From positions 16,140,897 to 16,204,896 of the forward strand of contig NC_049993.1 of the NCBI RefSeq assembly GCF_000003815.2: a DNA stretch of 64,000 bases, written 5' to 3'. Origin of the DNA: Branchiostoma floridae (lineage: Eukaryota; Chordata; Leptocardii; Amphioxiformes; Branchiostomatidae). The notes beneath the pieces were generated by a model. The model was not told where the DNA came from, did no database searches, and worked only from the letters and a program-made list of their open reading frames with translations. The position numbers and the translations under genes are program-made. Shown here one piece after another: positions 1,372 through 61,800 of the stretch. Within the stretch, counting starts at the first letter, position 1. Every line of letters starts with the position of its first letter.

Positions 1372-4300
1372 CTGAAATACAAGATAGAATCTTCAGTGAA
1401 GTAGTACATGCATATGAAGCAATAAAGCACACGGAGCTTGCTTGGGATCTGATTATAATGATAGTTTTGATGATTAAGATCGTAATATCCAGACAATCTT
1501 GGTAATATATACGGCGAAGGGAATGACGGATGTCTGGAAGGGCAATCAGCTCCTGATCCTATTCCAGATCCCTCCAAAAACTTATAACGTCCTTGATCAC
1601 CTCAGGTTCTTTGAATTATCATCTACGCTACGGCAATGCCTGGCACATAATCTCATCTGTGGATACCAATCTTGTGATTATATGCATTAATATGCAGTTT
1701 TATTAGATCTTAGCGCTGTGCTGTCAGCCGACACTGATTACTTTTGGGCAGGTTATCATATATGCGGTCTCTAATCAATATCAACTCGTCTCCCACTGAA
1801 TTGAAATAGGTTAAAGATGCAACAGGTCGCCCAGGAGTGGTGACCGCGTTCAGTGAGAACAAAAAGAGTCATTGGTGCCGTCAGCCTGCATGGTATCCAA
1901 TATTATCGCCACAAACTTGTCGGGAAGTTGATGAACAGCCAATGTCTCCCTCGCGGCGTTCGCTTCCATTCGGAATGACAGTCGCGCTCCGTGATGGATG
2001 CCGGGGTGGAAGGATCCGCCATTTTTCTCCGGGTCCACGCGCGGAGCAGGCGGCAGATTGAGCAAGTCGCCTCCACCTTTGATCCGAGCCGATTTGAATC
2101 CTGCGATGCGGTCAGTGCTGCAGTAAATTTGAGCTGATTGCTGGCCCATGCCGCGTGTGTGTGGAATGAACAATCAGCAGACCTCCCCCGCCAGACAAGC
2201 GGGACGTTTTCGACGAACGTTGAAGTGACAGTTCGTGTGGCCGAGGTGAAAAAGTAACTTAATAACAAAAATCGTTTCCGGACGTGAGTGACAAAGACTG
2301 ATGGTGCAACTACGAATGTGTCAGACTGTTGTGCTCTGAGACGTATCAGGTGGGATCGGCAGGACAAAGATCAAAAGCTTCCCAACCAATTATAATTGGT
2401 TATCAAAGAATATGGCGTCTAAGGATATACCACATCACTTAACAATCTTGCTTCTTGTTGATCGGGCTATACCTAGAAATTAGCTTTTTGTATTGGGTGC
2501 TGGGAGTTGCAAGAAAAATGTTCCTTATGCAGTCGTCAAGGTCAAATTTCAACGATTTATTGACATGGTTGTGTTGATGAGGTGTGTTGCATTTTCATGT
2601 AGACGGCGATGCTTCAATTCGATTTGAACGGAGAATCCGTAAGATCTAGTAGATCTAGATCATAGCGCTAAACGTGCGAGAGACTAAGAAATGTAGCAAA
2701 TTGTATTAACAAAGTGATTGACCGATATGTCCTACACCCTCGATTATGCGTTTCAGACTGCAGAACAGAGGTGGTTACTGTAGTAAATGTTACTAATGAG
2801 GTTAGGATCTCAACCTTCGAAGGCCGTCAGAAAACAAAACGACCAAGCTAAACTAGTTTGCAGAGCGGGTACCGGGTGTGTTGCTTAGATCATGTTGCGA
2901 GGATGCCAAGGACACGCCTCTCTCGGGTTAATTGCACTGAACTGGATCCCGTAAGGAAGAAGAATGAGGTGAGGTCAGCAAGTGGTCTGGAAGGAACCAG
3001 TTATGCAGGATTCAAGGAAATGGTTATGTAGGATTCAAGGAAACAGTTATGTAGGATTCAAGGAAACAGATATGTGGGATTCAAGGAAACAGTTATGTGG
3101 GATTCAAGGAAACAGTTATGCAGGATTCAAGGAAACAGTTATACAGGATTCAAGGAAACAGTTATACAGGATTCAAGGAAACAGCTATGCAGGATTCAAG
3201 GAAACAGTTATACAGGATTCAAGGAAACAGCTATGCAGGATTCAAGGAAACAGTTATACAGGATTCAAGGAAACAGTTATGCAGGATTCAAGGAAACAGT
3301 TATGCAGGATTCAAGGAAACAGTTATACAGGATTCAAGGAAACAGCTATGCAGGATTCAAGGAAACAGTTATACAGGATTCAAGGAAACAGTTATGCAGG
3401 ATTCAAGGAAACAGTTATACAGGATTCATCAATGAAACAGTTATGTAGGATTCAGAGGAGCTCGCGAGAGTGTGACAGGCTGTGGTGGCACACACCAGTA
3501 ACTAATGAACTTTCATTTTGCTTGGGGACGGACAAAGACTTTTTGTCTGTACTTTGTATATGGCATTATTAAAGTAAGTTACTTAAAAAGTACAGGCAGA
3601 ACGTGGAGGTGGTCTTAAACAGAAGTCAGGTACCCATTGTTACGCCTGGGTCGAATGATGAATGTCTTGTGAAGTGCCTGTCACAAGGGCACAACGTCGG
3701 GGACACGGCGGGTATCGAACCCAGGACCTCTAGATTCCGACCCCAACACTCTACCAGTGACGCCAAAAACACGACGGGACTGAACTTTCATCGAAGAAAA
3801 AGAAGACGAATGAAACGTTTTGCCCTGTACATGTTCATCTTGATTGCTCATAGACTGGAAAATGGTTCAACTTACTACGTACCGGCGGCGCTGAAGTAAC
3901 TCTTGTCCACTACCATCACCGGCACGACCTTCCTGTCGGGGTCACCGAGCTTGTTCTTCGCTACGCATGCGTAGTAGCCTGCTTCTGCCACACGCAGACT
4001 GTGCAAGGACAGGGACGAGGTCCTCTTCCCGTGATGCACCCAGCCGCTTTCCAAGTCGACGTCACTTCCGACCTTGCGCCAGCGTACTTCCGGTTTGGGG
4101 TTGCCATCGACGATACACCAGATTGTTGCCTTTGTGCCGCTTGTGATTTGAAGAGGACTCGAGACGTTGACAACCTTTGCTGGATCTGTAAAGAAGATAA
4201 ATGAATCGTCTCATTCTGCGTTATGTCATCTATCTGTTCTTGCTTGCACAACAGAGTTGTTCAAGGGCTCAGTGAAGAAAAATGAAGATGGCCTTCGCCC

Positions 4301-7300
4301 CATACTCCGAAAGATGGGGAAAACTTCTGTAGGTCATTAATCAGCTGCTTGAGAAAGGACAGTTATATCTATAGTGCCCAACTCCTGAAGAGGATCCGTA
4401 TTGTCTACTATAGCTAAAATATGAGTCAAGTGTGACAGCCTTTTCTTAACAACCAGTCTCAAGACGATGGGATTCAATTCATGCAATCTGTCAGATTTAA
4501 ATTTTGTCCGGACACACTGATTGGTCCATTCTGTCTAAACCACAAAGGGAATTCTTGTACAGTTTGCATAGCTCTTCGGCTTATTTTCAATACGAACCAC
4601 CCATCCCAAAAGTGTCAGAAAGAAATGACGAAAGAGTTGGTTATCTATTACTATCTCAACTAGGATGACACTCCGACTATGTTTCATTTCTTGCACTATC
4701 CATATCTACTCACACACGACCACTAGGCTGAGGCTGTCGGCCTGTTCGCTCCTGCCTTGCTGCGCCACGCAAGTGTAGTTCCCGCTGTCCGACCTCGCCA
4801 CCCTCCTCAGCACCAGGGACGACCTGTACTTGTCCGGGGTCTCGATGTCCAGCTTCTCCACGTGCGGGGAGAGCTGCCGCCCGTCCTGCAGCCAGTACAC
4901 CCGCGGGAGCGTGGTGCTGGTCTTCTCCACGGTACAGTTCAGGATGACGCTGGAGCGGAGGGATACACGGAGGGGACTCTGTAGGCCGACTGTCACCAGG
5001 GGCGGTGCTGTAGGTAAAAAGGCAGAAGAAAAATGTCAATCAAAGCTTCGATTTCACTTTTTGTCTGCTAACGTCACTATACACGTATCTCCTCCCCTAT
5101 GATGTAAGAAATTACATAATACTAAATTACTAAATACTCAACCGTAGCTTACAAAAATGTTCCCTGTAGACAGATGTTTTCTATATGCTTGGGTCAATGA
5201 TAAAATAATCTAAGGGACCATCAAAAATTTTCCATAGTGGCCAAGTGGCCCCTATGCAGAAGTGATTACTATTACCATTTGGTATAACGAATGAAGATGA
5301 AGACCTACCCATAACATCCAGGTAAACATAATGCTCCTGCTGCCCCACCGCGTCAACAAGAACAGTCATGACGTACTGCCCCTCGTCCTTGACCGTGACG
5401 TTCCACACTGTCAGGGACCCGTTCGGGTTGAGCTGCGCTCTGTCCTTCAGGGGTCCTGCAGAGCAGGGACAGAGAAAGGCCATACATATAGTGAATACGG
5501 ATGTATATTGTTGAATCTGTAGATATGATTCCACAGACTAAGCAACTATACGCTGTGGCATTAGGGCAATCATAAAGTGTTAGCTGTCAAGTTATGCTAT
5601 GTTACTGTATGTACCTAGTGCTACGGAGCTGGTTAACGAGTGGAGGAACACCGGTGTCCGCGTGCCCTCCAGACGTTCGTCCATCTTGTTCCACGTCAGC
5701 GCAATCACGTGATCATTGGGGTTGTAGGTCGCGGGCAGGTTGGCCGTGTCTCCCGGTGACACCTGCACTTTAGTTGACGCTGGCAGACCCTTGTTGCAAA
5801 ACACTGCAGGGGGAGAAAACGTAAGGTGATTAAGGTGTACTAAGATAGGTAAAGGTAGTCCCTTAAGGTGTATTCTCATTGCATTTGGGGCATCGGTGAG
5901 GCACTGCGGGGTTCGTTCACTTCGGCACTAGTACTGTTGTGTTATTTTTCTTTAATTTAGATATTGCGTAATACGTAACAGCATGACTTACAAGACAATA
6001 AAATACACAAAACGGAAGAAAAATCGTTCTTTATCTCTGAAATTCGTTGAGTCATCTACTAACTCCGCAGTGCCGCACCCATGCCCCAAGTGCAGCGAGA
6101 CTCCACCTTTAGTCTGTTTTGAGGCCGCAGGGGCATGGTTTGTGTGTAAGACTGGGTATCGGCAGGCGAGGCCTTACACCACCTTTTACCTCCCCAACCG
6201 AAGTCAGGTACCCATTTTACACCTGGATGGAGTGAGGATGAAGGAGAATTCTTCTTACACAAACAGTAGGTACTTACATTGCTTACATTGCGAAGGTGTC
6301 TGAGAGACATCGAAACGTAAGCAATGCAAGCACCTACTGGTTGTGCAAGTACCTACTGAATTCTCCTTCATCCTATTTTCTACTAACCTGATGAAACTAT
6401 TTTCGGAAGTCGTGTAAAATGTTTTTCCCAATGGCACAAGATCGGTAGCATGGCAGGATTCTGATGATTCTGAGCCAGATACCCACCCTGCATTTACGTC
6501 ACACGCTCCCACAACGTCACGTACAGATCATACGTCTTTCTCGGTTATAATCTTTAACGGCCCCCTCAAGGCCATGGCTGTTAGTCATGGTGATTTTGTA
6601 GATTACGTCCGACCTAGAGTACCCATTGCAATCAATGACTCTGTATCATCATCTATCCTCCTCTTTTAAGAGATGAAGCAAGTAAAGTTCGTCTTGCAGA
6701 ACTGTCTGTCTTTCATCGCTGTGAGAAGCTCCAGGTCCTGCAGACCAGTTTCTGACTCTACAAATTTCTTCAAAGTTAGCCTTTGGCGATTAACATGTTT
6801 CTTACAGAAAACAGGTGTCCAGAACAAGAGTTTTCCGGCAGGCTCTATACTACGCCACATGGCCGGCAAGGAGTGGTCGGCGTTGTTAAACAACAGATGT
6901 AACATTTGGTAATGACCCATATAGCTGACTATTTCAATGACTCAGCAAAGTTACATAATTACCTCTCGGTACGTTGGTTGTGACGCAATAATCAGTCACG
7001 TAAGGAGACAAGTATTTCTACACATCTTACATCATCAGAAATCACCTCTCCATTAAGACTGATATTTCGGAACAACGTAGTGCGCAAAATGACTACAGAT
7101 GGCGTTTGGACTATCGTTGCCTCCTCTGACTTAAATAAAAAGAAAGTAAGGTCTTATAGGGGCCATAGGGACAGTAGTTTATTTTGTTTCCATTGTGTTT
7201 GGGGCACGGTTGGACAATTTGGAGCCCATTTTTTTACTCACTAAACGAAGTCAGGTCCTCACCTGGTTGGAGTGAGGAATGCCGTGTAAAGTCTCCTCCC

Positions 7301-37033: not shown

Positions 37034-37389
37034 TAAAGGTGGGTTTACACCTGCGTATATTTTCAAGTGCGCATGAGTTCCGCATGAAATTTTGTCAATA
37101 CGCGGCCGAACGCCCAACATTTGGAATTTTTTTTGAATAAATTAAATTGTACGTCGAGCCCATCTGGCGTTTGAATTACGACTTCAGCGTTTTCATTTCG
37201 CATGAGATGCGTATGATTGCAACTGAAATGCGCAACAAAATTTTCCGTACTGCGAATAGATTCGTATGGGGTACGTATGTTGGGCGTTTTACGGACGCAC
37301 ACAACGTCTACCGACCGCATGCCTGACGCACCTGGTGCTAACTGCATTCCAAACGCATTTCAGGTGTGTCAGAGGAACAGTTTGTGTTA
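37034..37389 (-). repeat. 356-bp inverted arm, left copy
   Basis: Identical to the complement of 39060-39415 wherever I compared, including a 94-codon open frame that translates identically from both. The outer end carries AAGGTGGGTTTACACCTGCG, a terminus also present just before the right arm (39035-39060). The two arms have exactly equal length. I regard them as two head-to-head copies of one non-autonomous element, not as a gene. Confidence 0.85.
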
Positions 37390-39059: not shown

Positions 39060-39415
39060 TAACACAAACTGTTCCTCTGACACACCTGAAATGCGTTTGG
39101 AATGCAGTTAGCACCAGGTGCGTCAGGCATGCGGTCGGTAGACGTTGTGTGCGTCCGTAAAACGCCCAACATACGTACCCCATACGAATCTATTCGCAGT
39201 ACGGAAAATTTTGTTGCGCATTTCAGTTGCAATCATACGCATCTCATGCGAAATGAAAACGCTGAAGTCGTAATTCAAACGCCAGATGGGCTCGACGTAC
39301 AATTTAATTTATTCAAAAAAAATTCCAAATGTTGGGCGTTCGGCCGCGTATTGACAAAATTTCATGCGGAACTCATGCGCACTTGAAAATATACGCAGGT
39401 GTAAACCCACCTTTA
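39060..39415 (+). repeat. 356-bp inverted arm, right copy
   Basis: Exact complement of 37034-37389 as far as compared by eye, and bounded on the left by another AAGGTGGGTTTACACCTGCG-type end (complement, 39035-39060). Arm identity stops abruptly on both sides, which fits a transposition or template-switch boundary. Confidence 0.85.
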
Positions 39416-42308: not shown

Positions 42309-43672
42309 TCATTGGCGGTCTCGTTGGCACGTGTGCTTCACATACGTGAAGAAACCAATCACGACGTCGCTTCCAGGAGTTTCAGGTCGGCAGGTGAGCC
42401 CCTCCGCACAGTTGCAGTAGTCGATGGACATCCCGGTGAAGCATTCCTCGTCCTCCCGACCCAGAGGACCGCACTCTCCCAGTCCGTCCAGAGCTGCGGG
42501 AGAAATGCGAATGTGTGTGTTTGTTTGTTTGTTTGTTTGTTTGTTTGTTTGTTTGTTTGTTTGTTTGAACCTTTGTTTATTCATGAAAGCTCAAATCGGT
42601 CTGCAGGCCGCTTTTCATTGAGATCATGAGGGAAGTGGTAAGGGTCGGAGATGAGAGAAAGTATGTAACAGAGATACAATCTACATCATTTGAAGTCCAT
42701 CATCAATTTTGACTGTGATGACATATTCAGAAAAGGATGTAATACAACATGTAGACAAAACTCTCCCACTCTCACACTTATTAACACTGAATGGAGCATG
42801 CAGGGACAAATCTGTACATGACACAACTTACCCAACCCGGGATACCAGTAGACTGAGAAGGGCTTGTCATCTTTACGGCAGCACTGTGTTTCCCATTCAC
42901 AGCTGTAGGCCCATTCACACGTCCTGGCCTGGACGGACAGATATCAAAGGTACATGCATATTCAAAATATGACTGCAAAGTATTACATATGTATGTATAT
43001 AGTGAACTGTTGTGTACAGACAACCAAGCTATTTTATATATTCAGTACACATACTGGTGTTTGCGCCCATGTCACTATGACGTAAGCGCTGTCCGCCATA
43101 CTGGGCCTTTAAACTTGGCATTTTCTAGACTGTTTTTCTTTTTTATTGTTCCACAATAAGACAGAGTACATAGCATTACAAAGTGATGCCGTGCTCAAAC
43201 TAAAAGCTTATGTTAGCGGTACTACACAAAATTTGTATATGTACATATAGTAATCTAATCATGGCGACGTTATGTGCGTGCAAAATGATAGGCCTGATCG
43301 TCCTGATACTTATGGGTTCTACCAAACAGCGTGGAGACTATGACATCACGTACAAACATCCTACTCAAACACAGTATTTATGTTTTGGGCAACGTGTCTT
43401 TGAATTTGGTTTACGATATCTCAAATAAACATAACTCAGGAACAATAAGAGTCTGGTTTCTTCCACCCCGCCCTAGTGAACCATATGTTGCAGTTGGCTA
43501 ATGTATCTCCTACGTTCCCCATTTCCCCTTTTAAAGCCCGAAAAGGACCCGGTACTGGAAATAACTGGTGGAGAAAAAAGGTCAGAGACTTTGTAAAAAA
43601 AAAAAAGACAGAACTCACCACAGAAGCTGCTAACGTACAAAAAACAGCCCCAACGAACAAGTACTTCTTCAT
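42309..43672 (-). CDS. Secreted ten-cysteine protein, prokineticin/colipase-fold-like (copy A)
   Basis: Predicted secreted signalling-type peptide of 111 residues. Coding exons 43672-43619 (signal peptide MKKYLFVGAVFCTLAASV), 42928-42832 and 42493-42309; introns in phase 0 and phase 1, all with GT-AG ends, TGA stop at 42311-42309. The mature part has ten cysteines: C-x5-C-x5-CC-x21-C-x9-C-x8-C-x-C-x5-C-x20-C. The CC pair, the ECGPLGREDEEC segment (C-x9-C) and the C-x-C pair follow the order seen in prokineticins, colipase and Dickkopf C-terminal domains. The AVIT start needed for vertebrate prokineticin-receptor activation is absent, as in arthropod astakines. It is a paralogue of the gene at 44877-46751, with identical intron phases and an 18-codon first coding exon in both. 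An acceptor 10 bp upstream of the ATG implies a non-coding first exon. Gene structure is strong; the prokineticin link is by cysteine pattern only. Confidence 0.8.
42515..42660 (-). repeat. LINE/SINE tail with (CAAA)n, copy 1
   Basis: About twelve TTTG units, then AACCTTTGTTTATTCATGAA, AGCTCAAATCGG and GATCATGAGGGAAGTGGTAA. The same block order is at 48370-48490. On the minus strand it reads as a retrotransposon 3' end closing with an AATAAA-like box and a (CAAA)n tail. It sits in intron 2 of copy A, directly next to exon 3. Confidence 0.65.
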
Positions 43673-44038
43673 AGTGACGAGTCTGAAAGGACACAGAGTC
43701 GTGCCGATGATAAAAGACGTACTGATAGTTGAGTACCCAATGGCATATAAAACATTAATCTACAGTTATCTAGGAAGTTGTACGAAAGGATAAAGCAATA
43801 CAATGCAGAACAATAAATTATTGACTGTTCCATTTGAAATGCTAGCTCTAAACATTAACTTCGTCGTGTGCGCACCTGGAAATTCCCCACCAATAGAAAT
43901 TATTAAAAGTATGCACATACGGTTAGAAAAGCTCCAATTAAAGGAAGACCACTTCTTTCTTTTTCTGCTTGTTAACAATGACCTCCAGAAGAAAGAATTG
44001 AAATAAAATAAGCACGGATATGGAAGAGAAGAACCTAC

Positions 44039-44096
44039 CTGTGAAGAATAGTCTTCGCACTCAAAGTGCGCACGTATCCGACTTCCGTGTTTGTTC
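44039..44096 (-). other. Predicted non-coding first exon of copy A
   Basis: It runs from a start site expected about 30 bp below the TATA box (44127-44121) to a consensus CAG|GTAGGT donor at 44039. The partner acceptor is TGTCCTTTCAG ending at 43683, only 10 bases before the ATG of copy A. An upstream ATG at 44098-44096 sits at or just before the expected start site and may not be transcribed. Inferred; no transcript evidence. Confidence 0.45.
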
Positions 44097-44120
44097 ATGA
44101 TGGACACAGCAAATACGTCG

Positions 44121-44127
44121 TTATATA
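44121..44127 (-). promoter_or_regulatory. TATA box of copy A
   Basis: TATATAA on the minus strand, flanked by ACT and CGACG, about 455 bp upstream of the ATG and about 82-88 bp upstream of a perfect donor. The pairing of a canonical TATA box, a short leader and a donor is the reason for the call. Copy B shows no comparable box in the sequence that I could connect to it. Confidence 0.5.
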
Positions 44128-44876
44128 AGTGACCTTCGGATGATTACAGTAAAATCTACATCACAAACACTCTGAATATGTCATTTTAGACCATACATGT
44201 AGTTACTAGACCTAAATCAAGACGGCATGTGCTTAGTCCCTCATGGAATATTCCCACGTCCATCCATCCATCCAGTCAGTCATTCAGTCAATGAACCACA
44301 CGAAGGTATTACTTTACATGTAGATGCATAGATGCATCTATTAGGAAACTACGAGTACTTTAAAGGTCTTCAGTTACTCGTCAAAATGGTTCGAAAGGAG
44401 ATCATCTCAGGAAAAACTCACTCAGAAACAATTATTGCTTTTCTCATTTTATTACATTGTCTTATCACCGGTCACATTTCAGATTCATTCTGCTTGGTCA
44501 CTACATACGGAATACCTTCGGTTTGTGAAACTATCCTTTCGTGTACAAGCTAAGCGATGCTGATATTCTTCACTACTCTCCAAGAGGAGGATGGCTAGAA
44601 AGATTGTTTCCTTCTGATCTGTCCCATTTTCTGACTTATCGTCTTTTCATCTGACGACAAATAGTACAAATCTGTCAGGCAGACTGAACAGCGTAAAAGA
44701 CACGTTGAGTTACAATTTTCAACCTACGTAAATAATTTCTACTATTTTTCATAAACAAATGGAGAGTGGTAAAGCTTAAGACAACGAGATCGGGACAAGT
44801 CAGGAGAAAGTACAATCTTCCCATCCAACCTCTACTTGTAGAGCAGCTGTTCAGCTGATCAGTGTTGCTGGGAAGA

Positions 44877-46751
44877 TCACCCCCACAGCGGGTACTCCGG
44901 TGCGGTCTGACAGGTGTGGATGTTGAGTGGGAACTGCCCCGGCTCGGACGTGGGCTGGTCCGGGGCCGGCTGACAGGACAGCCCGTCCGCACACTGACAG
45001 TAGTCGTACGACATCCCTGTCCAGCACACCTCCCCCGCCTGCCCCAACCCACCGCACTGACCCTGCTCTTCGGGCTGGGAAAAGTCTGGGTACACAGGAA
45101 TACAGAAAACGTCCACTTATAATTCCATTCTCAAGAAGTGCCTATCTCGGAAATTACTGTAGGCGTGTCAGATTAGTACATTTGTACTTTAGCTCACTAT
45201 TTGTATTATAATCAAGAGGATGTTTGCTAATTATGCATACATATACAAGTGTCACTTGTATTACAATCAAAGAATAGTTCCTAGGAATACAGATAAATGT
45301 AGGAGTTTTAGACATGTATCTTCGCTCACACATGCAGATGTTTGTAAGGCCCCCTTTCCACTAGACGGCGATCGCGCTGCGCTCTCACTGCGACCTAAAG
45401 AGGATATGTGTGATATTTGCTTTCACATTGGGTATGTCATACAAAACGTAAGAGTGTGACTGAGAAGACAACAAAACACACAAAGTGTAAAAAGATTCGT
45501 TTCTTTTCGATACAATTCGTTGAGCGATATGTCAAATTTTAGGTCGCAGAGAGAGCGCGGCGAGAGCGCCGTCCTAGTGGAAAGGGGGTATAAGGAATGC
45601 ATATATATTTAGGAGTGTTAGGACAGTACATTGACTTACATACATACATACATAATTGACTTAGACTCAGTCAATATGATGGCATTGTGTATTCTTGTAA
45701 TTACTCCCTGTCTCATTCTCCTTGTGAGACTCAAATTTTACTTCATTCTTCTTGTGAGTGGCGAAAATCTAGTCTAACACAAAAGTTCGGCTTCCTTTAG
45801 CTTCTTGGGTAATAGTGAAAATGTAGGATGTATGGCATGACTCCCTACCGTGGTTATACCAGTAGATAGACCAGGTCTGTCCGTCCTTTCGGCAGCACTC
45901 CTGTGCCGGCCAGGAGTAACCACAGTCATACTCCGTGCTACACTTATCACCGATGGCGGCCTGGAAAATTAAGTAAAATTGGTATCACTGATTACATACA
46001 TTTCATACTTAAGCTCAGGCTAGGTTGGGTGTTTTTTTTTTGGTTTTTTTTCATGTTTCTGTATAAAACTATTTCAACCATCGTATTCCCTTCCTGATCT
46101 TGTGACTCGCCGAGTCAATGCTTTTCGACGACTATTTTTAAGGCATGACTTTACTTACATCGTGGTATTGGATATGATACAGTCTGTGGTATATAAATAA
46201 GACAAAAAAAATCAAACAAAGCGTAGTGCTCCACAGACATAACATTAGAATTACTCGTCTTTTAAGAGAATATCTGCTATAAAAGGTGTAGAGTAATAAA
46301 ATTTATTGATAAAACAAAAAATGATTCAACTATAAGTGCACAAAAGTAAACGTAAGATTTAACCACAGTAATAACAAGTTATATGAGTATATCGCTATAT
46401 AAGGTGATCAATTTTCATTTACACTTCAAGTAATTAGATGTAATCATTCTGTAATATATATAAGGGAAGGAAGGTCTCTACAGTGCGTCTGTTTTTCACT
46501 ACAAGTGTCCTTGGGCCATGAGAAATGGGCAGGTGTACAAATATGGCGCTCTACGAGCACACATCGACCATAGTCTGTTTACCCTGTGAATGATGGAAAG
46601 TTACTGAAGGCAACATGTACATAAACATAACGATAAAGCTTACATTCCTATACATAGTGGCTTCCGTGCAAAAATGGTTTCTGTAATTTTGACTTACCAT
46701 AGCCGCCACAAGGAGACCAGCGAATGTTATCAAGAACGCATGCGCACGCAT
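44877..46751 (-). CDS. Secreted ten-cysteine protein, prokineticin/colipase-fold-like (copy B)
   Basis: A 124-residue predicted secreted protein in three coding exons: 46751-46698 (signal peptide MRAHAFLITFAGLLVAAM, ending ATG|GTAAGT), 45960-45849 and 45085-44877 (TGA at 44879-44877). Intron phases are 0 and 1, as in copy A. Cysteines: C-x5-C-x8-CC-x24-C-x9-C-x8-C-x-C-x5-C-x20-C. Residues shared with copy A include CCRKD, a (W/F)S(I/V)YWY motif after the CC pair, TGMS-DYC-CA-GL-C in the second half, and HTCQ at the last cysteine. The C-terminal tail TAPEYPLWG is specific to this copy. An acceptor TTTTTGCAG lies four bases before the ATG, so a non-coding first exon is likely; it was not located. 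Receptor and function unknown. Confidence 0.8.
45350..45588. repeat. MITE, CTAGACGGCGATCGC family (complete copy, 239 bp)
   Basis: Left end CCCCCTTTCCACTAGACGGC with GATCGCGCTGCGCTCTC; right end GAGCGCCGTCCTAGTGG with AAAGGGGG, imperfect complements over about 45 bp. It lies in intron 2 of copy B. Related copies are at 9671-9866 and 16551-16890. Confidence 0.75.
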
Positions 46752-48369
46752 CTTGTCTGCAAAAACACACATTGGATATTGCCAATTTGAATATTGAATT
46801 TTGAATATTTTGAATACTTTCATACAGTCATGGATACACGTTGAATAAAGATGAATTTTTTTCTCAACCTTGAATGTTTTTTCAAGCTTGTCTTCTGCCC
46901 CTTACTCTACACTATACCCGTTACTTAGACATACCGTATTCGTGTATTTGTATCCTTAGACCTATTGCGTTGTGAACTGAGTTGTGAACCTTGCGTTAAT
47001 AAATATAGGTCATTAGATGGGGCTAACAGTAGTGAGTTCTCCAGTACTCAAACCGGCTTCTCTTTGAGTTTAGATCAAGTTGATATAGGTGCTAGACCCA
47101 AAGCAGCCAAATTCCACAGAAGCATTATTTCATTGCTGAACCTGGTTAATGGTTTCGTCCTCGCTCAAAGACGTTTAGGAAAGAAGGTTGGGTAGGCGTG
47201 ATCCGAGCGCAGTCAATAACATTCAAAAGAGACACTCTTCGGCTGACTGAAGTACTGCAACCGGAGCTATGCGCAAACTCTTTTATAACACAGTTACACA
47301 ACCTCAATGTGACAGAAATTTTGAAAAAGCTCACGAAACTCGTCAAGCCCTCTTTTCGGTCAGAAAACGAGTTATCGATTTCAGAAGAGTCTATGGCTTT
47401 TTACTTAGATCGACAGACGATCATACTTTGCTGTATTTGGATAACCAGGGTATACAATGACCTTTTCCAAGCGACCTATGAGATAAGTCAAAGTTTAAAC
47501 TTGTTAGGCCCTGATTACCTAGATATAATTGATACAGCACAGTACATGTATTACCATTTGTCGATCAAAAACGCAATAGAGTTTCCTGTACAGTAGAAGC
47601 CGCTTAATTGCACACCAAATTTTCCCATGCATGTCGTGCAATTATCCAAGTTGCGCAACAAAGCGAAGTTATTAAGCTGGACCGCACCGCCATGGGATTT
47701 TGGGATTTTGAAGTGTGCTATTATCCGTTTTGCAGTTAACTGGCTTCTATTGTACAAGATATCTTCCTTTTGTACCTCAAAGATCGCTTGATTCAGTTTC
47801 CTGGTTTTTTTTTGGGGGGGGGATGTCAGATTCTACACGAAGAAAATTACCAGGAACTCACCAAATGTTAGAACCGTAACCTTAAAGAGGGGGACTCGAT
47901 GCATTGTGTTTGCCTTGTATAATTGCTATCATCACTTTGTGGCCATGAACGGAGATAAATATGCTGGATGAGAGCCGCGGAAAGTCTATTTCAGACCGCG
48001 CCAAAATTGTATGGAAAGTGTTGGTTGAACAAGAGACTGCGCGCGAGCGCCTCCTACCGGAATTGATTCAAGACGTTTCCTTCGTCGTCACCAGCACATT
48101 TGAGCTTTTCAGATTGTGTAACGTGGTTTCCTTCGTCGGATAGACGGCGGTGAGTCGTTACCTGTTTTTCAAGGACAAAGATTTATCAATAACTCAGAGA
48201 ACTTACAGGATATATATTTGAGATGATTCTAACCTATGTGGGTTCACAGTTATTTTCTTGGTGTGAGGGAAGCTTTACATACTAAAGTTGTTTTTATGGA
48301 ATCGGATCGTGGTAGAAGAGCTCCCATTCAGCTTTAGGCCTGTCCTGTCCTGTGTCCTCTCGACCTGTA
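46752..48369. other. Upstream region of copy B, no exon assigned
   Basis: About 1.6 kb containing a pogo-like MITE (47589-47754) and two open plus-strand frames (47198-47596, 132 codons; 47961-48143, 60 codons). Neither matches a family I recognise, so I leave them unannotated. The missing non-coding first exon of copy B may lie here. A G-run is at about 47814. Confidence 0.35.
47589..47754. repeat. MITE with pogo/Tigger-like termini, 166 bp
   Basis: TACAGTAGAAGCCGCTTAA at the left end pairs with TTAACTGGCTTCTATTGTA at the right end. TACAGTAGAA-type ends with a TA target are characteristic of pogo/Tigger-derived MITEs. Inner blocks AATTGCACAC and GTGCAATTATCCAAGTTGCGC add further symmetry. 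Confidence 0.65.
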
Positions 48370-54596: not shown

Positions 54597-58852
<4,256 letters not shown>

Positions 58853-61800
58853 GTAAGAACCTGTCATTGTCCTATTATTTCCAGATTAAAACTAAGTTTC
58901 TTACGTTTGAAAGAACTTGCTCCTCTCTCTACTGTGGTGCATCTGGTTAACTTTTCAGTATTATGTGACGGCAAAGTTTTGTAAGAAGTTCCAAATGTAG
59001 AGGCACCAGAGTTTCATATGTACTTGCACTTGCACCACGAACGTTTTGTCCACACAGTGTGAACGCGCGGTAGGTGGGCTAAAACAACAGGAAGGTCTTC
59101 ATCCCTTACTTGACTCCATTGTGTCAAGTTTCAAAGTAAACCTTGGTGTTTTTATCGACATGTTCGCCTGTGGTTGGGGTGGGGCATGGGGATCAGTTGT
59201 TTCAGACCCTCCTTATACTAGTAAGTTACAGTGGAGACCTTTATTGTACACACAAAAATGAGACATTGTGCTCGAGACATGGGAAGTGGCTGAAAACGTG
59301 GCGGAAGAAAGAGAACGGAAGTTTGAACAAAAGAATATAACACCGCAACAACATGGTTTAAGTCAGTACGTGACCATTTTCCTCTGTCATTCCCAACATG
59401 TGAAACTGATATCTAAAAAAGGGCATCGTAGCTGCAAGCACTGATATTTGAAAGGGTCATCATTTCAAGCTATAGAAATCTTACTTTTATTCAGTATACA
59501 CAATACCGGTACTTGGGAGAACATGTATAGAAAATCTTATCTTTACTTATACCATCATGTAAGTCTAGATCTTAAGGATATGAAGTTCAAACTGAAATGA
59601 GAAAGCAACATGTTTTGCCAGGTATTATGTAATACGGCTCTGTTAACGTTGGACTACAGCCAAAGTCATCAAGAAATCTAAAACAAAGCTTTACTGTCCT
59701 TGAACATGTTTTTCTCCCATATTGCTAGCACAGTAGTATGAGCATAGGATCATTGCCAAAGCCTGGAGTAAAGTTCAGTGACCCGGGTCTGTTTCAGTGT
59801 ATGTAGGATACAAGTGTGTTTTTGTTCATAATGTTGGGTCATAAATACGGTGGGCGGTGCGTATGGCGTGTATATTTTTCTCAGGAGTGTTCTGTGCTTG
59901 TCGCACATCCGGAATGAGAAGTAAAACGTGATTCAGTTGTTGATGTTTCCCTCCCCCCATCGGAGTGCTTTCCTGTGTAAGTCTCCACACGTGCTGCGAG
60001 TGTTGTTCACTTTGGAACACTACATTTATTGTGCATACATATATGCTGAGTGAGCACTTCCTCACTAAAAAAACAATGGGCCATTGCGTCCAAAGTTGAA
60101 GTTCAGATCACAGTAGAAAGTATGCATATCTGTACCGGCCTTCTAATTGATGATTTGATCATCAAACATTTTGAGTTATGGTGTAAGCTTCACACATCAC
60201 TTTTCTATCGAGGTAACAGCAGGACATTGTGCATATTTGTAAAAGCTTCACTTAAAACATATACCTAGATCATATGAAACACTGTACAATCAATTCTATT
60301 AGGTGTTATATTGTACTTGATTTCCACAATTTAAAAACTAATGTGTAGTAATGTAGACTGGACCATGCAAATGGACCACTTTTCACTCACCAGTTCTTAT
60401 TTAATGTCTCATTACAACATGAAGTTAACATCTTTTAGCAATTTGCTTCCAAAACATCTGTATATTGTTTCTCTCAGGTGTAGACTTCCTACCATAAACA
60501 CCTCAGAATCCCAGTCACAAAGACAGACAGGACCTAATTGATTTTCTGTGCGTCATACGGAGGGAAACACAGATCACATGTACCACAAATCACTTCTATT
60601 GACGGCAGAATTTGTCGCATTTTCTTCTCATGGCGCCCGAGTGTCGATGGGGGGAAATGATGTCACTGTAGCGAACTTGTCACATCAACAGTTTCAAGCT
60701 GTTTGTTACATTAGACCATTGTGTAAAGTTTGTGTGCTGAAAGCATCGCCTTGTAGAGTTTGAATAACAGGAAAAAAGGAATGCCAAAGAAATGAATTTT
60801 GAAATTTGTAAAATTGATCTTTCAATAACTGTACAGTCTTTTGGCTTGTAAAGATATGACCACAATGACACTAGAAAATTCATGGCATTGGAAGTAAAAA
60901 GGCAGAAGTGCACAGAAGATGGACATAGATGTCAAAACATGCTCGAAAATGATAAGATCTTCCTGGAATGAGTATGGAAAAGTCATATTGTGTGCGATCA
61001 AAGTAGGAAATACCCAATAGGAAAAGGAAAAGTCCCATTGTTTTCTTATTTTCACCAACTCAATGACTTGTACAGGACTGTACCTTTCCCTTCCTTCCTT
61101 CCTTCCTTCCTTCCTTTGTAGTAAAGTACATGTTTGATAGACTTTGTGTTCAATCAGTCTCCATCCTTTCCTTATCAACACTCAATTACCTGTATTATAT
61201 GTGGAGAAATATTGTGATATGCATGTATTAGACAGATGTCTCAACTGTCAAGTGTCTTATCCTGTTTTTCTTGGTAGGGAGTTTTGGACAACTTCCTAGA
61301 TACACAGTATCTTGTTTTTTGCACATGTCTTACGAACAGGTAGCCATTGAGGCCAAGTTGAAGAGGGGTTTGTGTTTGGGACAAGTCTATAACAAACCTG
61401 TGTGTTTAACTGTGGGGTCCTGGAATGTGAAGCTACAAAGAGACTCTTGTTGTAGAGAAAGTTGGAACATGTCGTAACAAATTGCCAGTCATCTATCATC
61501 TAGCTAGTTTTAGGTAACACTGCATATTTACCGCATGTGTTCAGGTCGTTTATTTGTCAATGGTAAAGATCAGTATATACAATGTCATGTATTTTGAAAG
61601 GCTCACAACTTTCTGACACTTAGACCCCAGTCACATTCGAAAAGTGAAGTGAATTAAACATTTAATCGAGTTTTTGGTACGGCACTTTTGTTCAGTTAGA
61701 TTTAGGTTTGATTTTGATGTTGTTTATTTGTTTATGTACAAATTTCAACTCTTTTAATTGACAAATACCTGATTTGTAATATGGATTTAAGGTGTCATGT

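Follow-up and report, generated by a model that had tools for sequence, protein, structure and literature searches.

The window analysed here is a 64,000-nucleotide stretch of the Branchiostoma floridae genome (contig NC_049993.1, positions 16,140,897 to 16,204,896 of the forward strand; C15:16140897-16204896 in the genome searched, which comprises 513,431,437 bases in 431 contigs) with a guanine-plus-cytosine content of 42%. Its minus strand carries two neighbouring genes, A (42309-43672) and B (44877-46751), which on exon-by-exon modelling each encode one ten-cysteine domain, with cysteines numbered here C1 to C10. Their predicted exons, in window positions, are as follows.

Gene A, exon 1: 43619-43672, minus strand, signal peptide of 18 codons, phase-0 donor GTGAGT, end not AVITG
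Gene A, exon 2: 42832-42928, minus strand, N-terminal subdomain C1-C4, phase-1 donor GTAAGT
Gene A, exon 3: 42309-42493, minus strand, C-terminal subdomain C5-C10 and stop
Gene B, exon 1: 46698-46751, minus strand, signal peptide of 18 codons, phase-0 donor GTAAGT
Gene B, exon 2: 45849-45960, minus strand, N-terminal subdomain C1-C4, phase-1 donor GTAGGG
Gene B, exon 3: 44877-45085, minus strand, C-terminal subdomain C5-C10 and stop

The four introns of the predicted splice pattern all run from GT to AG, with phases 0 then 1 in A and B alike. An earlier account made by a model from the letters only (the sequence-only reading) had described tandem three-exon genes with these phases and 18-codon signal exons, and this anatomy proved exact. 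The predicted products are 111 (A) and 124 (B) amino acids long and 41% identical across the whole precursor. The signal exon of A ends in LAASV and is followed by ARTC, while that of B ends in LVAAM and is followed by AAIGDKC, confirming that neither gene has an AVIT start. The ten cysteines after the signal are spaced 5,5,0,22,9,8,1,5,20 in A, whose signal holds an extra cysteine, and 5,8,0,24,9,8,1,5,20 in B. The second halves are therefore the same in both, C-x9-C-x8-C-x-C-x5-C-x20-C, as had been stated, and ECGPLGREDEEC is present in A. With the cysteines taken as free and the cleavage site guessed, the mature isoelectric points (pI) are 4.52 for A and 4.05 for B, and range from 4.05 to 4.73 when the relatives C to F described below are included.

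The similarity of A and B exceeds chance. Nucleotide matches between the two loci at E<1 are confined to exons 3 (7e-9) and 2 (0.007), and the duplication followed by divergence that had been proposed is borne out. NG86 estimates for A/B are 0.59 nonsynonymous (dN) and 2.37 synonymous (dS) substitutions per site, a dN/dS of 0.25 with dS saturated; dN/dS is 0.46 for A/C and 0.23 for B/C, with dS of 1.3-2.9 over the pairs, near or past saturation. No further copy of A or B was found in the 64-kb window, the next best matches having E 0.64 (exon 2) and 2.1 (exon 3). Across the whole genome, exon 3 of B matches itself, then A (E=8.5e-11), C (5e-8) and D on contig C18 (0.004), the last match being a frame with two stops at E 2.8. 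Beyond itself, exon 3 of A finds B (2.3e-10), C (2.5e-5), D (0.026) and, more weakly, four other places, and exon 3 of C finds only C, B and A at E<=10. The D exon 3 search gives nine places at E<=1, namely D, F, one on contig C19, two on C16, two in E, A (0.034) and B (0.064), E and F both being on C18. Gene C, at C15:5228994, has three exons with the phases of A and B and a signal exon of 20 codons; its exon 2 shares CCxKDxxxxSxYWY with A and B, and it has two additional cysteines. A and B group with C, on the same chromosome, and more loosely with D-F, on another.

Two arrangements were observed among the looser relatives. Gene E (L011, C18:15975781-15978918) contains exon 3 in two near-identical copies, with part of a third, within a pyrimidine-rich stretch, which is suggestive of recent exon duplication. 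Exons like the C-terminal subdomain of D, with shorter C5-C6 spacing, lie at C19:15719000-15720050 (L054) and at two places on C16 (L055 and L056). Another cysteine-rich open frame stands directly upstream of the D-like exon on C19, an arrangement that hints at shuffling of the subdomain exon.

Pfam was searched to a limit of E 10, although the HMMER filters conceal most matches weaker than about E 0.1. The only family matching A and B is Dickkopf C-subdomain 2 (PF21479), with E 7.4e-4 (A) and 8.5e-5 (B). These matches reach 20 and 23 bits against a cut-off of 27 and cover profile positions 20-49 of 50, the C7-C10 part. Within the same limit neither gene matched prokineticin (PF06607) or Dickkopf subdomain 1 (PF21481), none of A-F matched colipase (PF01114/PF02740), and C, D, E (minus exon 1) and F matched nothing at all; a further sequence, G, gave only E 0.7 and 2.2. 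NCBIfam gave no match. As a yardstick, the two Dickkopf models give 52.4 and 46.3 bits for the genome's own Dickkopf1/2/4 cysteine-rich domain 2 (CRD2; L001), for which PF06607 gives 20.8; one genome prokineticin reaches 37.6 bits with PF06607. Profile comparison by hhalign placed A+B+C at 97% with D+E+F, at 87% (score 36.1) with 12 prokineticins and at 74% (31.0) with three Dickkopf CRD2 rows. D+E+F gave 91% with the prokineticins and 36% with the Dickkopf rows, and prokineticins against Dickkopfs gave 96% (51.0). The top score among 32 comparisons with cysteine-fixed shuffles was 20.1, and none of ten such shuffles matched Dickkopf, prokineticin or colipase models, so chance similarity to the superfamily was rejected. 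Because the profile scores lie far above these controls, membership of A-C in the prokineticin/Dickkopf/colipase superfamily is a sound assignment from the sequences. The profile search proposed by the sequence-only reading thus gave a superfamily match by hhalign and no Pfam match to prokineticin or colipase. The part of its claim that concerned a signal, ten cysteines and the superfamily of prokineticins, colipase and Dickkopf C-termini holds, and prokineticin identity is not supported. Among Protein Data Bank (PDB) sequences, A and B used singly found one chance match apiece; the best match of the A+B profile was a silk protease inhibitor (E=0.033), with DKK1 at E=0.18, neither significant. 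The predicted fold of exon 3 is of low confidence, and its top structural match is a cystine-knot anemone peptide.

The spacings x5, CC, x9, x1 and x5 are constants of the superfamily, present in almost every prokineticin and Dickkopf row of the genome; therefore only x8 (C6-C7) and x20 (C9-C10) are special to A and B. In a tree of 21 rows, A/B/C (80/86) and D/E/F (96/88) are set against prokineticins, Dickkopfs and G (87/91). By this tree, the separation of A-F from prokineticins and Dickkopfs, as a family made up of A-C and, more distantly, D-F, is supported but not firm. The bootstrap values are unsettled, and long branches, flagged in a warning by the tool, may be joined falsely. The position of the intron is weakened as a family marker, because the prokineticin genes L026 and L028 also appear to be split just before C5 and the domain of vertebrate PK1 is spread across exons 2 and 3, as described in the available text of PMC8877203.

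The best overall explanation, to which we give about an even chance, is that A and B belong to a separate family of orphan colipase-fold secreted ligands or modulators. The family placement taken by itself is highly probable, while a role as ligand or modulator is more tentative and falls a little short of even. The family A-F would be lineage-specific, and no prior description was found in one open-access literature library. Neither known receptor-binding surface of the fold, the AVITG head or the LRP6-contact residues, was found in A and B. The proteins would be secreted, with the two subdomains of exons 2 and 3 locked by five disulfides that would hold the scaffold while the fingers vary. 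Through these fingers, namely the C9-C10 loop and the long C4-C5 loop with its YWY, they might act outside the cell on a surface molecule, and would use neither the AVITG pocket of prokineticin receptors nor the LRP5/6 site of Dickkopf. The colipase fold has been reused for Wnt antagonists, ligands of G-protein-coupled receptors, a lipase cofactor and a Hydra antibacterial neuropeptide, and a lancelet family outside all those roles, in a genome that has also multiplied its AVITG-type prokineticins, would be a test bed for the re-aiming of one scaffold.

A digestive or mucosal effector, that is, a colipase-like cofactor, protease inhibitor or antimicrobial from gut or epidermis, is possible but unlikely. 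TATA-like boxes upstream of both genes, the small acidic secreted products predicted and the divergent loops are consistent with it, as is the existence of Hydra NDA-1, an antibacterial peptide. By its description in the available part of PMC5614986, NDA-1 is, like A and B, signal-bearing and ten-cysteine; it is taxon-restricted, as A and B may be, has a colipase-like model and is unplaced among prokineticin, astakine, Dickkopf and colipase. The same source makes it an example of an orphan ten-cysteine protein with an unrelated job. NDA-1 is, however, cationic, with a predicted cleaved C-terminal part, whereas A-F are acidic, and unlike colipase A-F have no Pfam colipase match. A better colipase-like candidate lies at C5:9591862-9591981, the genome's best Pfam Colipase_C match (35.6 bits, E 6.5e-6), possibly an invertebrate colipase-like gene.

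The sequence-only reading had taken A and B for prokineticin-domain cytokines. Prokineticins (AVIT family, PF06607) do share with them a C-x5-C, CC, C-x9-C, C-x-C-x5-C framework of ten cysteines, a separate phase-0 signal exon and a small signal-bearing product. Prokineticins, however, have AVITG directly after the signal, and no signal exon with a TG end and a phase-0 donor was found on either strand of the window. The C4-C5 loop has 22-25 residues in A-C versus 11-14 in the genome's prokineticins, the C9-C10 loop 20-23 versus 10-13, and the C6-C7 loop 8 in A and B versus 18-19 in 11 of the 12 prokineticin rows (the other, L029, has an extra cysteine there). Exposed Trp24 of prokineticins, which lies within the C4-C5 loop, is crucial for receptor binding; the tryptophan of A and B sits in a far longer loop, with no position alignable to it. 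The PLGRE-like segment singled out by that reading is the superfamily-wide x9 loop; C5 is followed by G in all of A-F but by K in all 12 prokineticin rows and both genome Dickkopf rows. A and B are absent from the 23 places found genome-wide with PF06607 at E<=1, and with neither a PF06607 match nor an AVITG-like exon they were rejected as prokineticins; the cytokine claim is left unsupported.

A headless-prokineticin form of that claim, in which A and B derive from prokineticins and act as receptor agonists without AVITG, as astakines might, is improbable. It could draw on the ten cysteines, on an hhalign value for prokineticins above that for Dickkopf, on the large prokineticin family of this genome and on the 20 prokineticin-receptor-like genes reported for amphioxus in the accessible text of PMC2246102. 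Arthropod astakines, likened here by description only, also have a prokineticin-type domain without AVIT (PMC11521371, in part). The astakine domain holds two signature sequences. The missing Pfam match and AVITG-like exon, the C6-C7 loop, the G after C5 and the position of A-F outside the prokineticins in the tree all count against it, as does the statement in PMC8877203, in its available portion, that AVITG is essential for prokineticin activity.

That A and B are free CRD2 domains binding LRP5/6 and modulating Wnt signals, like the CRD1-less Dkk1/2/4 that the accessible part of PMC6425005 describes in Hydra, is quite improbable. The weak match to Dickkopf C-subdomain 2 as sole Pfam family speaks for it, and A and B have a C-x-CxEGLxC...HTCQ stretch in common with DKK1, though at the E=0.18 given above. 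The ten-cysteine framework and a long C9-C10 segment with an HTCQ end are also shared with Dickkopf1/2/4 CRD2. Dickkopf1/2/4 proteins carry both CRD1 and CRD2, whereas A and B have a single ten-cysteine domain from signal to stop. The intron of A and B lies inside the domain, while the genome's own Dickkopf CRD2 is one open frame. Subdomain 1 is unmatched, the C6-C7 finger is cut to 8 residues, A and B are acidic, and a true Dickkopf1/2/4 is located elsewhere, on contig C3. Of 13 LRP6-contact residues of Dickkopf1, listed by PMC9532339 in its available text after another study, nine could be located by counting from a cysteine, a placing that is nominal where loop lengths differ. At these nine positions A keeps none, B one, the genome's Dickkopf four and human DKK2 all nine. 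With a single domain, a sub-threshold Pfam match and at most one of the nine LRP6-contact positions kept, A and B were rejected as Dickkopfs.

It is a long shot that A-C are natural decoys with the prokineticin fold, in which AVITG was never present or was lost, and which would bind lancelet prokineticin receptors without activating them. Such a step is chemically plausible, since the frog prokineticin Bv8 without its Ala-Val binds and does not activate (PMC8877203, in part). Equally remote is the extension that A-C tune a system of about 19 prokineticin-type places facing about 20 reported receptor-like genes. That A and B are chance exons or pseudogenes is hardly credible: the splice sites are intact, nucleotide similarity is confined to exons, the exon phases are the same in three copies and dN/dS is below 1.

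A more striking by-product than the A/B family is the enlarged set of AVITG-type prokineticins. Among 29 scored candidates, PF06607 found 23 places in the genome at E<=1, 20 of them above the cut-off. One of these, L034, reaches 28.6 bits with Dickkopf subdomain 1 and a lower 23.6 with prokineticin, and therefore about 19 of the 20 are prokineticin-type. The loci L015-L033 are distributed over C2, C3, C4, C9, C10, C13, C14 and C19, with clusters at C13:21.23-21.25 Mb, C10:16.82-16.85 Mb and C2:12.30-12.56 Mb. A single TAG in the matched stretch of L016, L030 and L031 may be a splice acceptor, and L032, with two stops in its matched stretch, may be broken. Upstream DNA of 16 of the 20 loci was scanned for signal-like exons that have a phase-0 donor and TG as their last residues, a criterion chosen once a looser tail score had been tried. 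On the gene strand 12 such exons were found in 11 of the 16 regions, the other five having none, and on the antisense strand they occurred in 0 of 16. Their ends are AVITG (exactly so in one of the 12), LVITG, MVVTG, LVLTG, IIITG, MVITG, MPITG and similar. In the AVITG-headed gene (L043 with L021, C9:9849099-9849320) the signal exon has a phase-0 donor and lies roughly 3 kb upstream of the domain exon, VCENDIQC... The AVITG head is described as a chordate mark in the accessible part of PMC11521371. The amphioxus receptor expansion was called surprising in 2008 (PMC2246102, available text), and a large prokineticin set whose AVITG-like heads vary would provide it with ligands. Taken with the receptor count of that source, the set looks like a ligand-receptor co-expansion.

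The putative upstream elements of A and B are as follows, in window positions or by distance from the ATG.

44121..44127, minus strand, TATA-like box 5' of A
near 44040, minus strand, possible end of a 5' leader exon of A, AG/GTAGGT
10 nt 5' of the ATG of A, minus strand, acceptor CTTTCAG
47280..47287, minus strand, TATA-like box TATAAAAG, the nearer of two 5' of B
48216, minus strand, second TATA-like box 5' of B
5 nt 5' of the ATG of B, minus strand, acceptor TTTGCAG

With an acceptor just before the ATG and TATA-like boxes further upstream, both genes are likely to have a non-coding leader exon.

Searches of the window for tRNA genes and Rfam families gave no matches. A perfect inverted repeat of 356 nt (37034-37389 and 39060-39415, 1670 nt between the arms) is perhaps a fold-back transposable element. 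Two immunoglobulin-domain exons lie on the minus strand at 3878-5035 (best Pfam E 2.4e-13 and 1.1e-12), and 5184-5537 holds a weaker third. A JmjC-domain exon at 58691-58981 on the plus strand (Pfam E 2.5e-11) looks KDM4-like. Finally, a 23-bp tandem repeat of 20 copies at 2991-3459 is open in all three plus-strand frames.

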